Notes under the pieces: model-generated
The model's database searches: none
Told to the model about the DNA's origin: nothing
The model's input: only the letters and a program-made list of their open reading frames with translations
Shown here: positions 4,712 to 14,969 of the stretch, piece by piece
Layout: every line of letters starts with the position of its first letter
How positions within the stretch are numbered: position 1 is the stretch's first letter
Position numbers and translations under genes: made by a program
From: Zychaea mexicana
Lineage: Eukaryota; Mucoromycota; Mucoromycetes; Mucorales; Lichtheimiaceae
DNA: 64,000 nt
Assembly (NCBI RefSeq): GCF_025766255.1
Contig: NW_026516682.1
Coordinates: forward strand, 434,001-498,000
Direction: 5' to 3'

Positions 4712-6125
4712 GACAACTGCTTGAATGACACCAGAAAGGAAGAGTGCTGCGTCTGACGGCTTACCTGCGCATGTAGTGCATAAGGAGCCTCGTGTAACTT
4801 TATATTTACGGCTTAGTAAACGAAAATGATCTCTGATGGCAGAACTCGTTTTTACTTCTCATTCTGATCTAAACAATAATATATGCTTATTGTATGATTG
4901 TCACAGTATTTGTTTCGTCCTTTTGTTGTTACAGTATTGTTGTTGTTTTCGTTTATCGTAATGTAAGTCAAGTTATGAAACATGTTAGTTTGGTTGAGTA
5001 GGAAGATGCGATTGTGAAAATGTCGCTTACTTACGTCAGTATATAGTACATGAATGACAACAAGCATTAGTTACCTTTCCTCGACACGTATTGGCATCAA
5101 GCTGTTAATTTTTAACCATACACAACTATAACTGTAATGGTGCGTTACAAGAATGGATTTCCATTATAGCAGCTTTACAACAGAGAGTTTAGTAAACGAT
5201 GTTGAATGCATATTATGTACCGTTTAAGATTTCTAGAGGTGGTCATGATATTGGAAAGTTCAACTCGGATGTGGTACGTAAAAAAAACCACGTGAGCGTA
5301 CACAGAATTGTTTCTTAACTATACTGGTCTTGTCTATAGCACTTAGAACCCTGAAGCTCCTTGGGATCGCCTGTTTTACTGCTAATCTACCCAATTTAAA
5401 TACTAAACCCTAAACAAAGTCATTTAAAGCCGAGAGTCTACCAAGAATTGATGATGTATTAGCACAAATTGTATTTGCAAAAGAAGAAGGGTGTCGATGA
5501 AGAGCATCTTACGTAACAAAGACGCAGGCAAACTGGTCATATTATGATACACTAGCTGTACCAATTCATAGTAAAGGTTGTCTGCCTGTTGTGCTCACGT
5601 AATCTATAGCACTCTAATAAGCACTGTTACATCTACTACGGTGGTCGTCCGTTGACATGCAGAATCTAGTTTCCCTTTTCATTCATGGGACGTTCGCTCC
5701 CGCGCACGCTCCCTTGTTGGGGGTGGAGGGTTTCCCACACCCTGTTACACCGCTTCACTCGTTTACTATGGGTTGCTAGGTAAGAGAAGTGATAAGCAAC
5801 AATAGCAGGCAAAAATGTTTGCAAGTTTTCAAGGCGGATGATATCTTCATATAATAGATATGTAGAATTGTACCTATTACCAGTTTATTCAGAGTTGAGA
5901 AGAATATGGACCCTCTCGCTGGGAAATAAAGTGTGGATTCCAATCAAACATACCGCTACAATTGAGCGTAATTACATGTTGACAAAGTCAAGTATCAGAA
6001 AAGCTGGTTGATATGATGCGAAACTTTAATTGCTGTGTACACAAACCAATCGATCTGCATTGCACGCAGCGCCTAGCACCTGACCGATTTTTCAACTTCA
6101 GAACGGCTGTGTTTTCTTCATTTCT
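4712..6125. other. Intergenic, 1.4 kb without a supported gene
   Basis: No ORF here has recognisable similarity or splice-consistent structure. The part just before 6126 is presumably the VFA1 promoter. Confidence 0.5.
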
Positions 6126-6764
6126 ATGAGCCAGCGAATTCAAAACCTCTACATTGCAAGATTAACGACAAACGAGCGACCGTGCTATATATGTAGCAAA
6201 TTCACAGCAGTCGTATTGACATTGGCAGACAACAGTAATCTCGACTGGTTTTACATCTGTCGGTCGCATTTAGGCGATACCAACTTTTGCACTCGTGTCG
6301 GTGGGTCGAGTGGGACAAAATCGGCTCCGTCTAGCCCAAGGGCAAAGAAACGCTTCGAGGACCGTCCTCCAGAAAGTGACAGTGTCTCAGACCTGGTGGC
6401 CAGCATAGGCTCGGCATGGAATTCATGGCGGAAAAAGCCTTCGCAGGACGATGACGATAAAACTAGCAAGGACAAGAAGGATGGCGAGGACGGGGATAAA
6501 AGAAAAAGTGACGATGGTGACAAGAAAGATGCAAAGGAGAAACAAGACAATGAAGACAAGCAAAAAGGGGAAGATCATAAGGATGACAAGACGGAAGAGC
6601 CCACCACGCCGAAATCGCCGCAACAGCCCGTGCGTTTTGTGCTAAACAGGGACTATTTCTATATGCGACAACGGGAATACACTCGCAAGATTCAGAAGAA
6701 AGAAGCAACCGACAAATTGAAGGATTTGGAGTTTCCAGAAGTACCCAAAACTCAACCAAAATAA
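6126..6764 (+). CDS. VFA1: Vps4-associated protein 1 (Vfa1)
   Basis: A single-exon gene of 212 aa. In yeast, Vfa1 binds the ESCRT AAA-ATPase Vps4 at endosomes and stimulates its ATPase. The N-terminus carries the family's zinc-finger-like region: C20-x2-C23 (CYICSK), then WFYICRSHL with the second Cys/His pair. The middle (about residues 65-165) is a low-complexity chain of Asp, Lys, Glu and Gly, typical of a disordered linker. The C-terminal block (LNRDYFYMRQREYTRKIQKK) is the conserved helical part expected to bind Vps4. The ATG at 6126 is the first in frame and begins the conserved domain directly. Antisense ORFs here are shadows of the DK-rich linker. Confidence 0.88.
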   Translation: MSQRIQNLYIARLTTNERPCYICSKFTAVVLTLADNSNLDWFYICRSHLGDTNFCTRVGGSSGTKSAPSSPRAKKRFEDRPPESDSVSDLVASIGSAWNSWRKKPSQDDDDKTSKDKKDGEDGDKRKSDDGDKKDAKEKQDNEDKQKGEDHKDDKTEEPTTPKSPQQPVRFVLNRDYFYMRQREYTRKIQKKEATDKLKDLEFPEVPKTQPK

Positions 6765-7128: not shown

Positions 7129-7767
7129 ATGAAGTAACGTATCAGTCCATCCATCCATCCATCCATCCATCTGTTGTATGTAGTGCATATCCATCGACCA
7201 TCCATATTTACCATACTATTCTATTCAGGCTCGAGATTTGCTCGTTCTCCGGTTACAAGATCTACCCTTCCAAGGGCAAAGTTTACGTCCGCAGTGACAG
7301 CAGGTAATTTAACGATGCATGGTGCAACTGTCATTCCCCTTTTTTTCAGCTTGCTAATCATTATAACTCTTCAAATATAATGTAGAGTAAGCACGAACGC
7401 ATTTACGAAAAAATTAACGTACATCGCTCGTTCACGCTATTAACATTTGCATGTTATGAATTAGACTTTCCGCTTCCTCAACGGCAAGGCCGAGTCGTAC
7501 TTCTTGCAGCGCTTGAGCCCTCGCAAGATCCGCTGGACTCAAATCTATCGTCGCCTTAACAAGAAGGGTGTTACCGAACAGATCGTCAAGAAGCGCACCC
7601 GCCGCACCGTCAAGGCTGAGCGTGCTGTTGGTGGCTCCTCGTGGGATGAAATCCGCGCCAAGCGTGCCGAGAAGCCTGAAGTCCGTGCTGCTGCTCGTCA
7701 GGCCGCTATCGAGAAGAGCAAAGAAAAGGCTAAGGCCAAGGGTGCTGCTAAGGCTGCTAAGAAATAA
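7129..7767 (+). CDS. RPL24: 60S ribosomal protein eL24
   Basis: Model: join(7129..7133, 7229..7303, 7386..7386, 7465..7767), 126 codons plus stop. The product is a large-subunit ribosomal protein at the subunit interface. Exon 1 is only ATGAA. Exon 2 gives EICSFSGYKIYPSKGKVYV, with the eukaryotic eL24 signature. The last exon gives FRFLNGKAESYFLQRLSPRK and a basic Ala/Lys tail. Exon 2 ends with two bases of an Arg codon and the last exon starts with a full codon, so one base is missing for the frame. A single A at 7386, flanked by TGTAG and GTAAGC, supplies it exactly and gives SDSRTFRF, matching the family (SDSK-x-FRF). Removing 7304-7464 as one intron would frameshift. The protein is shorter at its C-terminus than yeast eL24 (155 aa). 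Confidence 0.85.
7145..7171. repeat. TCCA microsatellite in eL24 intron 1
   Basis: About six copies of the tetranucleotide TCCA lie in the first intron of eL24. Confidence 0.9.
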
Positions 7768-8426: not shown

Positions 8427-10222
8427 ATGAAAATCCATTTAGCTACATCAGTTTTATTTGCTGCTGCAGCAGCTGCGCCGGTTATCCATGCCCTCCCTTT
8501 CTTTGGCGAAACATTAACCCATCTATACGACACAGGCTTACTTCAACGTTCTAGCCTTACAAAGCGTGATTTGACGTCCGTTCCAGATGAATTAGGTGAC
8601 CAGTGTCCCGTCGAGACTGATACCCTTGCTGGTGAAGCGGTGAGCGTCGCTACAAGGCACATTTTAAATCTCATGTGTTCGCTAATTAGCTTTATGTACT
8701 TAAAATGTGTAGTTCTTACATTTTACCGGTATCTTTTTCCATGATTTCATCACGGTAGATATTTCTCTGTTAAATGTCTAGTATATAGATAGTAGAAACT
8801 TACCTGAATGGTTAAAATTTTAGGGTGGTGGTCAAGACATCCTGGGCCCTTTGGCTGTTGGCGATACATTTACTGGTAAGTTTGCTAGCCATAGATAACA
8901 TGCGTGATCCTATAATGATTCTTTTTACTGATTCTGTCGCCACTTTTTAGCACCTGGCTATATCGTTAATGCCAACGAAGAAGTTGTATGTAACGGCGAT
9001 TTTCAGAATTCCTTCGGAAGCCACGGTCTAGTCGTTGGTGGTGTTACCGATACTATCGATACCGACGTACATGGTGATGCTTTCCTTGCAGGCGGTGGAA
9101 CCGTAGACGAAGTTCACGAAGAAGACCCACCTTGTGATGTTTACACTGATCAAGGAACTGCGCATTTCGACTTTGGCGCAGTCGAAGAAGCATCTCGTGA
9201 TATTAATCGCCTTCTTGCCATGATGACACCTAACCTTGTTATGCGCGAGGGAGGGGAGATCGTTTCACTTGGTGGCGATTCACCTTATAAGGTCATGACC
9301 TTCAATACCTGCAACGACCGCAACTGTCCAGTGGATGGAGCCCTCTCCGATCCAACGGGTATCTTCTTCAATGATGGCAACTTTAATGGCCCGTCCGGTG
9401 ATGTACCCAGCCAGGACGACACTATAGTATTTAATGTATGACTTTGGTCTCTATTTTTTTGGTTGCTATATGAGATAACTAATATTAGCAAAAATTCCCT
9501 TTTGCAGATTCCGGTAACCGATGGCAGCACTCTTCGCTTAACCGGCAACCAACCTAGCCAGGGATTCTATGCATGTCGAACTATCTATAACTTTTATCCA
9601 GTCAATGAAGACGGCCAATTTGTTCCTGGTGGTACCTTCACTCTTGTTCGGGAAACCGGCAGTCAATTGGAAGGCTTTTCACTTGCACCACGAGGTAATT
9701 TTTCTTGTTCTTATACTAGGCTCATAGGAACCACTTGAACTTATTTAATGATATTCATCGCTGCTTTTAGGCCACATCCGCGATGGCCTGACGGGTAACT
9801 TTGCTGGTACTATTATTGGTTTGGACTACACATGGGAGTACTTCCCTCAGGGTGTAGAAATCCACGACTACCCCGCTGCCAATTGTGCCAATTTTCAAGG
9901 CTGCCTGCCAATAAATCCAGGCTCTCCAAACACAACCACTACGACAACGACCACGTCGAGGACAACTGACGGTGGCTTGACAGTTACTGCCACCACTACT
10001 AACTCTATTACTATCACTAAACCGACTACTACCACTATCACTGAGAATGACGGGACAACTGTTACAGTAACAGATCAAGAGACAGTGTACATTAACGATC
10101 CTTGGGAGGACGAATGGAAGAAGAAGAAGAAATGGGGCAAAAAGGGCAGCAAATGGGAAAAAGATGACAGCAAATGGGGAAAAGATGACAGCAAATGGGA
10201 AAAAGATGACAGTGAGTGGTGA
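8427..10222 (+). CDS. Secreted choice-of-anchor A domain protein (paralogue A)
   Basis: Model: join(8427..8639, 8824..8875, 8951..9435, 9508..9694, 9771..10222), 462 aa. It has an N-terminal signal peptide (MKIHLATSVLFAAAAAAP), then a Kex2-type KR site (SSLTKR-DL). Next is a choice-of-anchor A-like domain: DILGPLAVGDTFTAPGY, HGLVVGG, LSDPTGIFFNDGNFNGP, SQLEGFSLAP and a Cys-containing end. This domain occurs in bacterial and fungal surface proteins, where it is thought to be adhesive. A Thr-rich linker (about residues 350-400) probably carries O-glycans. The tail repeats a W-K/D unit (SKWEKDDSKWGKDDSKW) and lacks a hydrophobic GPI signal. The downstream paralogue at 12.4 kb shares the domain, KR site and tail, and three of its exon junctions. 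The ATG at 8427 starts the signal peptide. Function is inferred: cell-wall or spore-surface protein. Confidence 0.8.
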
Positions 10223-12416: not shown

Positions 12417-14969
12417 ATGTGGATTAACCACGTCGTCCGAATTACCTTGGCAACAGCAGCCACTGCTGTACTCGCAATCGTCTCTGTTCAGGCAGTGCCA
12501 GATCCAGGGAAATTCTCAGCTGGGAATCTTATTGCCGAGCTTGGAAATCGAAGTGTAAAATCACACCGTCTTGATAAACGAGATGTGCTTGAGGACTTTG
12601 ATCATTTCTGCCCTGCTCAGAGAGAAACTCATGCCGCCGAAGTCGTAAGTTCACGCTGTTTAATGTCAAGGCACTGTTGCGAATCACCTGTTCTTATATA
12701 TGATATGTGTAGTTTAGCCATTTCACCGGAGTTTTCTTTGGAGATTTTATCACTGTAAAAGTCGTTCAAGTATAAAAGTTTCCCTTTTCATGTAGCACGT
12801 AAAACGTCGCTAACACTATTTGTTTGAATAATGGGATGGATATTAGGGCGGTGCTCAAGACATTTTGGGTCCTCTGGCGGTTGGAGGAGCCTTCACTGCA
12901 CCAAATTACCTAGTCAACGCTAATCATGCGCTCAGCTGCAGCGGGTCAAGCATTGTCGACAGATTTGGTTTGGTTATTGGAGGAGAAGTGGATACATACG
13001 ATACCAGAATTCGCGGAAGCGTATTCTATCAGTCTGTCAGTGTCTCTGCAGATTTGAGGCTGCTCTCTGAAGGCGAAGGCTGCTCGCTGTTTACCGATTC
13101 GAGTCCTGTTGATTTCGATGTTGTGGAAAGCGTATCCATTGTGGCCTCGCTACTCCTCTCATCCTTAACGCCCAATGTGCAGCTAAACGCAGACGGCACT
13201 GTCAATGTCCTTGATTCGTCGAGCACGCGATACTCGATCTTCACCTTCAATACTTGCTCCAGCTGTGATCTTCAAGGTACTCTATCCGACCCTTCAGCTA
13301 TTTTTTTCAATCAAGGCAACTGGAACGGCCCTCAAGGTGGCTGGAGCCAAGGCGACGATGAACTTGTTGTTTTCAACGTAAGTAGAAAAGGACCATATTC
13401 TACAGAGTGGGGCTCTCTAGCTCTAATTGAAACACTTATCATTTTCCAATTTCTATTTTAAGATTCCTGTTTTAGCTGGCAGTACGGTTGAGATTAACAG
13501 CAACAATCCAAGCAACGGCTTCAATGCATGCAAGACTATTTACAACATCTACCCAGTGAACCTGAACGGTGAATATAGTGTCACGGGCGAGATCACCTTT
13601 ATTCGAAACACTGCAAGTCAGCTTGAAGGTTTCTCATTGGCACCTCAAGGTATGTGTATATGCTTTCATAGATGTATGACGAAGCCCAAAAAATTCAAGT
13701 ATAAGACGCTAATTATGCTACTTTCCAGCGAACGTACTTGATGGTACAACAGGCGCCTTTGCCGGGAACATCATTGGGCTCAGCTATGGATGGCGATACT
13801 ACCCAACTGGTGTGGAAATTCATGATTATGCTGCTGCTGGCGACGGCTGCGATGAGTTCCAAGATTGTTTACCTGGAAATGGAGGCAGCGGTCCAGGCAA
13901 TGGGGGAGCAACCACAGGCACCACTACTATGGTCGAAGTCGTCACCACAACATACACATCAACTGCAGTGGCTATGACAACGATGACTTACGGACCCGAT
14001 GTTGGCGTACTTACGCTACCTTCCGATTATACCTTCCCTCCAGACTATCATACTACATTTTTTGTGGATGTCGACACTGACTGCGAAGTACAAACTACTG
14101 AAGTAACGGTGACCGAACCGCCAACAACTGTTACAAGCAGAATAGAGATATACGACACAGAAACACTTACCAGCACTGCCACTGATATTTCGACGCAATT
14201 GGTTACGAATACATTGACGTCAACAGAAGTTACTGAAATCGTCATAACCGAACCAGGCACAACCATCACTGTGTCTGACTCGGTAATTACTGTACCTCCT
14301 GAAACAGTAACAACGGAAATCACTCTTATCGATGTGATCACTACCACCGATACGTCCCTAATCACCAACCTTGCTACGAATGTCTATACAACTGTTGAAA
14401 CCTTACTTACTGATATGACCCTTGTCATTCCTGGAGAAACATACACAACGGCCGTGGAAACACTGGTTCAAGTTCCAACAACCGAGACTTTTGTCGTTAC
14501 GTTTAGCGATGAACCTTCAATAGGCACAACTGAATATGTTACATCCTTCTCAGAGCCTACAACTATGATCCTCACAGTAACCGACAGTAATAGAGTGACG
14601 GAGCATGTGACACATGCGACGCAAACGACCAGAACAATTACCTCCTATATGACGCAAACGGACAGACATACAGATTCTCCCATGACAAGCACCACCAGGA
14701 CAAAGACCATCACGACCGATATCCCTGGCATCACTGTCACTTCTGAAGGAACTGAGTATGCTTATTATCTTACTTACCCCTATGACAAGTACCATGGAAA
14801 GGGCAAAAAGAAGATCGGAAAGTGGAACCACGGTGACAAATGGGATAAGGATAGCGACTGGGAAGGAGACGATGATGACTGGGAAGGGGATGATGATGAC
14901 TGGAAAGAAGACGATGGTGACTGGGAAAAGAAGGATGAGAAGACTTGGCACAAGGAGAAATACGATTAA
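12417..14969 (+). CDS. Secreted choice-of-anchor A domain protein (paralogue B)
   Basis: Model: join(12417..12644, 12847..13377, 13463..13649, 13729..14969), 728 aa. The order matches paralogue A: signal peptide, Kex2-type site (RLDKR-DV), anchor-A domain (DILGPLAVGGAFTAPNYLVN, GLVIGGEVDTYD, SDPSAIFFNQGNWNGPQGG, SQLEGFSLAP). A much longer Thr/Val/Glu-rich stalk follows (about residues 365-650, repeated VTE-P-TTVT motifs) and then a Trp/Asp tail (DWEGDDDDWEGDDDDW). Exon junctions at the N-terminal linker, after VFN, and after FSLAP-x are shared with paralogue A. The intron splitting FT-AP in A is absent here. The stalk suggests projection of the domain from the wall. There is no GPI signal, so the charged Trp tail may be the wall-binding part (inference). 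The long stalk is the main divergence after duplication. Confidence 0.8.

Follow-up and report, generated by a model that had tools for sequence, protein, structure and literature searches.

The gene for the ribosomal protein eL24 in Zychaea mexicana (Mucorales, Lichtheimiaceae) raises the question of how its reading frame is kept across the last coding junction. Because exon 2 stops in phase 2 and the last exon begins in phase 0, a join that leaves out the lone A at position 7386 is short of one base, or of one base and a further multiple of three. The gene lies in the window, by which we mean the whole 64,000-nucleotide stretch analysed (C101:434001-498000 of the 50.3-Mb, 305-contig genome). 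Taken as a whole, the best explanation appears to be that A7386 is a constitutive single-nucleotide exon, to which we give a probability of about 0.93. Included in this way, A7386 completes Arg27 of SDSRTFRF and sets the reading frame for the remainder of eL24.

Structure of the eL24 gene and the frame at A7386

An earlier note on this DNA had proposed the one-base exon, and its coordinates for exon 2, the lone A, the last exon and the introns all held on recheck (Table 1). All introns are GT-AG. Exon 2 terminates at 7303 with ...AGTGACAGCAG, and the last exon opens at 7465 with ACTTTCCGC. When the two are joined without A7386, the sequence reads SDSRLSASSTARPSRTSCSA and translation ends after 43 residues, which confirms that direct joining shifts the frame and soon stops. 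The position of the lone A between an acceptor and a GTAAGC donor was also correct (ATGTAG/A/GTAAGC; slashes mark junctions). The two flanking introns had been called normal for the window, and four introns of the adjoining flippase gene, delimited by eye, agree with this at 65-86 nt. The intron upstream of A7386 contains a branch-like CTAAT starting 32 nt before its 3' end; no CTRAY/TTRAY branch-like site was found in the upstream intron of the paralog described below or in intron 1 of the window gene. A TCCA tandem repeat occupies 7146-7171 of the window, within intron 1.

Table 1. Parts of the eL24 gene in the window (window coordinates; U1 duplex energies in kcal/mol)
Feature	Position	Strand	Basis
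Coding exon 1, ATGAA, 5 coding bases	7129..7133	+	Joined product equals deposited Zychaea eL24
Intron 1, GTAACG...TTCAG, 95 nt, with TCCA repeat	7134..7228	+	Read from sequence
Exon 2, ends in phase 2 with AG of Arg codon (...SDS-AG)	7229..7303	+	Read from sequence
Intron 5' of lone base, GTAATT...CTAAT...ATGTAG, 82 nt; donor CAG/GTAATT	7304..7385	+	U1 duplex -8.1
Probable single-nucleotide exon, A, third base of Arg27 codon AGA	7386..7386	+	Parse enumeration, paralog layout, deposited protein
Intron 3' of lone base, GTAAGC...AATTAG, 78 nt; donor AGA/GTAAGC	7387..7464	+	U1 duplex -5.3
Last exon, phase 0 start at ACT (TFRFLNGK...), to stop TAA	7465..7767	+	Read from sequence

The flanking exons are one base out of phase, and inclusion of A7386 restores the conserved protein as a 127-aa eL24 product. 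This product is identical to the deposited Zychaea mexicana protein at 127/127 residues, including Arg27, which is supplied via the lone base. The two exon pieces match PF01246 (Ribosomal_L24e) with 49.4 and 41.1 bits (cut-off 27), and the chain 9axt_Bi, named eL24B, matches residues 1-125 of the window eL24 with 141.2 bits. All four solved-structure alignments listed are ungapped at the A7386 junction. Because AGG also encodes arginine, the protein does not show whether the extra base is A or G; it is identified as A from splice rules and from the paralog.

The second eL24 gene and the possible splice parses

A profile search of the Zychaea genome gave six L24e matches at three loci. Contig C22 carries a second eL24 gene (locus L007) with the layout GACAGCAG, 93 nt, A, 144 nt, ACCTTC. 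Its exon 2 ends ...CGCAGCGACAGCAG and is followed by the intron GTAAAT...AAATAG; the lone A stands between AAATAG and the consensus donor GTGAGT, and the intron GTGAGT...TTATTAG then leads to ACCTTCCGTTTCCTC. The coding sequences of the two genes are identical at 338/369 bases, with a dS of 0.46 (NG86) and differences at 20/60 four-fold sites. Shuffles scored at least as high as the real pairs of introns in 180/300 and 273/300 cases; the two copies therefore have no alignable intron similarity. At the DNA level, the one-base exon is thus kept in the one other eL24 gene of the genome (1/1), and from the shared layout we infer that it is older than the duplication behind the two Zychaea copies. 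Compared by eye, the C-terminal end of the C22 copy resembles Phascolomyces P0002 and that of the window gene resembles P0003, which suggests a correspondence that probably places the duplication before the Zychaea/Phascolomyces split. The third L24e locus, on C240, is RLP24-like by eye, has other introns and lacks the one-base layout, and was not used as an eL24 copy. The C22 gene also shows an apparent extra intron, GTATAG...TTTAG, near its C-terminus, absent from the window gene (by eye).

All in-frame GT-AG parses from exon 2 to the last exon were enumerated under three limits: no intron shorter than 45 nt, at most one middle exon of no more than 40 nt, and no acceptor further than 60 nt inside the last exon. 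The window gene gave 30 parses (6 with a single intron) and the paralog 9 (4 with a single intron). In each copy exactly one parse keeps every eL24 residue, and it is the one with the one-base exon; the claim of the earlier note that including A7386 fits eL24 is borne out in both genes. Donors were scored by U1 duplex energy rather than by a splice-site weight matrix trained on the Zychaea genome. By mean donor score the same parse ranks top in both copies, with -8.1/-5.3 kcal/mol in the window gene and -8.3/-6.0 kcal/mol in the paralog, and nine other donors of the genome range from -1.9 to -8.6. Its only ties are with variants (two for the window gene, one for the paralog) that contain the lone A and use a later acceptor inside the last exon. 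One other parse of the window gene has equal length by chance, through a 31-nt exon that displaces conserved residues. An AG-N-GTRAG with room for introns on both sides occurred in 0.16% of 5000 dinucleotide shuffles for the window gene and in 0.06% for the paralog. The AG-A-GTRAG arrangement in eL24 is not due to chance.

Deposited eL24 proteins of relatives and alternative readings

The earlier note had named conservation among Mucorales as a check. This was found at the DNA level in the paralog only, and for other species it is read from irregular deposited proteins. An eL24 protein search of genome-contig and viral-contig collections found no DNA of relatives. Fifty-eight deposits, assigned to Mucoromycotina by their genus names (Zychaea and Umbelopsis were checked), came from the best 120 of 212 matches to a regular query, so the ranking favours regular deposits. 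Among the matches listed, 39 of these 58 are irregular at or ahead of the junction, compared with 2 of 157 other proteins, which include 95 new matches listed from a further protein search (Fisher p = 5e-26, with entries treated as independent, which shared ancestry and shared pipelines contradict). The 58 consist of 19 regular deposits, 11 without VR.D.R, 12 with an insertion straight after DS and 16 broken otherwise. The irregularity lies directly at the junction in 23 of the 39 and within or ahead of the stretch in 16; in some of the 16 otherwise-broken deposits the cause may be the 5-base first exon and not the lone base. Among the 157 others, 148 fit the regular pattern, 7 are regular by eye, P0082 is truncated and P0103 (Thamnocephalis) lacks six residues. 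P0082 is 91% identical to the query and perhaps itself belongs to Mucoromycotina.

Another search (best 120 of 998) used an Umbelopsis query without the six residues; it is biased for that reason and was left out of the 58. It added 8 Mucoromycotina-named deposits, 0/8 of them regular, which brings the combined tally to 19/66 regular. Umbelopsis deposits were regular in 0/6 cases, three of these from the biased search, and the irregular P0219, 96% identical to the Umbelopsis query, was counted in neither group. Twenty-three of the 25 other new proteins from this search are regular (22 by pattern, P0228 by eye). Site-matched losses outside Mucoromycotina were seen in P0103 and P0233 (Saitozyma; six residues each) and in P0236 (Ustilago trichophora; one residue), for which mis-annotation or other micro-exons are candidate readings. 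In P0121-P0136 (Mortierella and kin), the junction is regular in all 16 deposits. Their N-termini look mis-predicted in at least 12/16, with varied leaders before IEICAFSG, as would follow from a very short first coding exon like the 5-base ATGAA.

The kind of damage was compared in 18 irregular deposits in which DS is retained, 15 from among the 39 and 3 from the biased search. P0242 (Rhizopus arrhizus) reads DSRLSVSST, and the computed direct joins of the two Zychaea genes read RLSASST and RPSVSST; to judge from these strings, P0242 is the out-of-frame last exon joined directly to AG. R-V-R, R-V-S or R-V-C occurs in 8/18, and the computed read-on through the donor of the lone base in Zychaea gives RVSTNAF and RVSNSTI. 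The R-V deposits would thus be the lone base read on into its donor, a footprint that would fit equally a species with the lone base fused to exon 2 in a complete AGR codon. P0017 and P0026 show R-Y, which is what reading on through the first donor would give. P0048, P0240 and P0024 resemble models that jump to an acceptor within the last exon, a reading that at the level of bases is inferred, and P0004, P0022, P0028 and P0040 carry other short insertions. The exon 2 of the C22 gene contains a strong cryptic donor, AAGG/GTAAGG (U1 duplex -9.4), and donors of this kind may explain the Mucorales deposits with exon 2 in the wrong frame (GLRFAPSP...LPR-TFRF). The pattern of damage suggests that the phase mismatch is probably common to Rhizopus, Mucor, Lichtheimia and others, and possibly occurs in Umbelopsis as well.

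A single 160-nt non-canonical intron would leave the protein identical, with a flank supplying the missing base and the codon being AGG. Exon 2 would be one base longer (CAGG/TAATTT, TA-AG) or the last exon would start one base earlier (GT...TTA/GACTTT). In each gene copy either flank could provide the extra G, and AGG and AGA cannot be told apart from the deposited protein. This is nevertheless very unlikely, as it requires TA-AG or GT-TA boundaries and does not account for the AG-A-GTRAG found in both copies at shuffle frequencies of 0.0016 and 0.0006. In addition, R-V-R and R-V-S in relatives indicate a donor just after the base that completes the arginine codon.

Less probable again is the use of a donor inside exon 2 together with the acceptor of the last exon, so that eL24 would lack VRSDSR or more. 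The candidates, TAC/GTCCGC and AAA/GTTTAC in the window gene and TAC/GTTCGC and AAG/GTTTAC in the paralog, are in frame in both copies, and deposits lacking VR.D.R follow such a model in 11 of the 58, including P0003 (Phascolomyces). However, the single-intron parses lose at least six conserved residues, which are retained in 155 of the 157 other deposits among the matches listed and by the deposited Zychaea protein. Their donors score +0.8 or -1.2 in the window gene, where the donor just downstream reaches -8.1, and +0.8 or -4.1 in the paralog, where the corresponding donor reaches -8.3. The U1 score of the AAG/GTTTAC donor in the paralog (-4.1) is usable and lies inside the range of the nine other genome donors; this donor is disfavoured because of the conserved residues lost and the stronger donor just downstream. 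The best account of the deposits without VR.D.R is that gene predictors chose such a model to restore the frame.

A direct exon join rescued by a -1 ribosomal frameshift on AGC AGA C, with the A reread to give SRTFRF, would by arithmetic yield the same protein after AGA, but is scarcely credible: inspection by eye shows no slippery heptamer, near-complete shifting would be required for a ribosomal protein that is highly expressed, and coincidence would have to account for a lone A between splice sites in both copies. A false frame break from an assembly or sequencing indel in exon 2 or the last exon would look alike if a base were missing, but its chance is negligible, since two genes on different contigs with different sequence have the same phases and both flanks match eL24 residue by residue up to the junction. 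The one-base exon in eL24 is very probably real, old and common to much of Mucorales. The deposited proteins suggest that it probably dates to the common ancestor of Mucorales, and possibly as far back as the Mucoromycotina ancestor.

Splicing order, known one-base exons and possible role

The acceptor TAG and the donor GTAAGC are one base apart, so that exon definition is implausible for A7386, as is simultaneous occupancy by U2AF and U1. The two short GT-AG introns would therefore be removed by intron definition, one after the other. The likeliest order would be 5'-first: the 82-nt intron would be taken out and exon 2 joined to the A, and the new junction CAG-A/GTAAGC would then serve as the donor from which the 78-nt intron is removed. 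Such a scheme is a recursive-splicing ratchet that advances by one base. Because AG forms the end of exon 2 as well as of the first intron, the donor context AGA/GT is equal before and after the first step in both copies. The U1 score of the second donor likewise does not change when the first intron is taken out, and a 5'-first ratchet is thus possible. Short fungal introns are spliced co-transcriptionally, which is our ground for preferring this order.

One-base exons had been called extremely rare in the earlier note, with a plant APC11 gene as its example. That case stands, but not as the sole one, since plant VPS55 and Fusarium CYP621A have also been reported. The single-nucleotide exon of Arabidopsis APC11 is nuclear and constitutive and lies between two introns, and its authors, Guo and Liu, considered exon definition implausible and favoured intron definition combined with recursive splicing (PMC4674806). 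APC11 and Zychaea eL24 are alike in one nuclear base between two introns, whereas APC11 is a plant cell-cycle gene studied with GFP fusion constructs and eL24 is a fungal ribosomal protein gene known from sequence. The 1-nt microexon of plant VPS55 is described as conserved across diverse land plants and absent from reference annotations (PMC8831610). It resembles eL24 in its one base, followed in VPS55 by a GTRAGT donor, but flowering plants carry it in only one of two paralogue clades, whereas both Zychaea copies have it. The one-nucleotide exon of Fusarium CYP621A was called the first for a fungal gene by its authors (PMC12940212). Like eL24, it concerns one base in a fungal nuclear gene, and for CYP621A the exon was inferred from a phase mismatch and an AG-N-GT shared by orthologs. 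CYP621A has a lone G in a rarely expressed P450 gene of Ascomycota, with SRA reads, and eL24 a lone A in a housekeeping gene of Mucoromycota. The mitochondrial one-base exons of placozoan cox1 (PMC5436844) and Ophiostoma rnl (PMC12308204) also lie between two introns, which are, unlike those of eL24, group I or group II and not spliceosomal. No report of a one-base exon in Mucoromycota, in eL24 or in any ribosomal protein gene was found in the titles and abstracts of the papers listed by searches of the open-licence PMC literature. The Zychaea eL24 exon would join the few known nuclear one-base exons (APC11, VPS55, CYP621A).

A one-base exon offers a natural way to test intron definition and recursive splicing, because simultaneous use of its acceptor and donor is hardly possible. 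The eL24 gene is a housekeeping gene that needs accurate and abundant splicing. The exon is present in two copies whose introns have fully diverged, and it should be easy to follow experimentally. Annotation pipelines that overlook one-base exons would explain the 39 of 58 Mucoromycotina-named eL24 deposits that are irregular among the matches listed. A speculative and rather unlikely idea is that the exon is an ancient, Mucoromycotina-wide frame gate in which the balance of inclusion and skipping regulates eL24 supply. Inclusion would yield eL24, and skipping would yield a dead end of 43 residues destined for degradation; the balance might be used, for example, when free eL24 is in excess. 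If true, this would explain why such an awkward architecture was retained in both copies and not lost.

Elsewhere in the window, a gene for Vfa1 (Vps4-associated protein 1) lies at 6084-6761, upstream of eL24 and on the same strand, and the ORFs at 8932-9438 and 12847-13458 match pAdhesive_15, a putative ice-binding-like adhesive domain.
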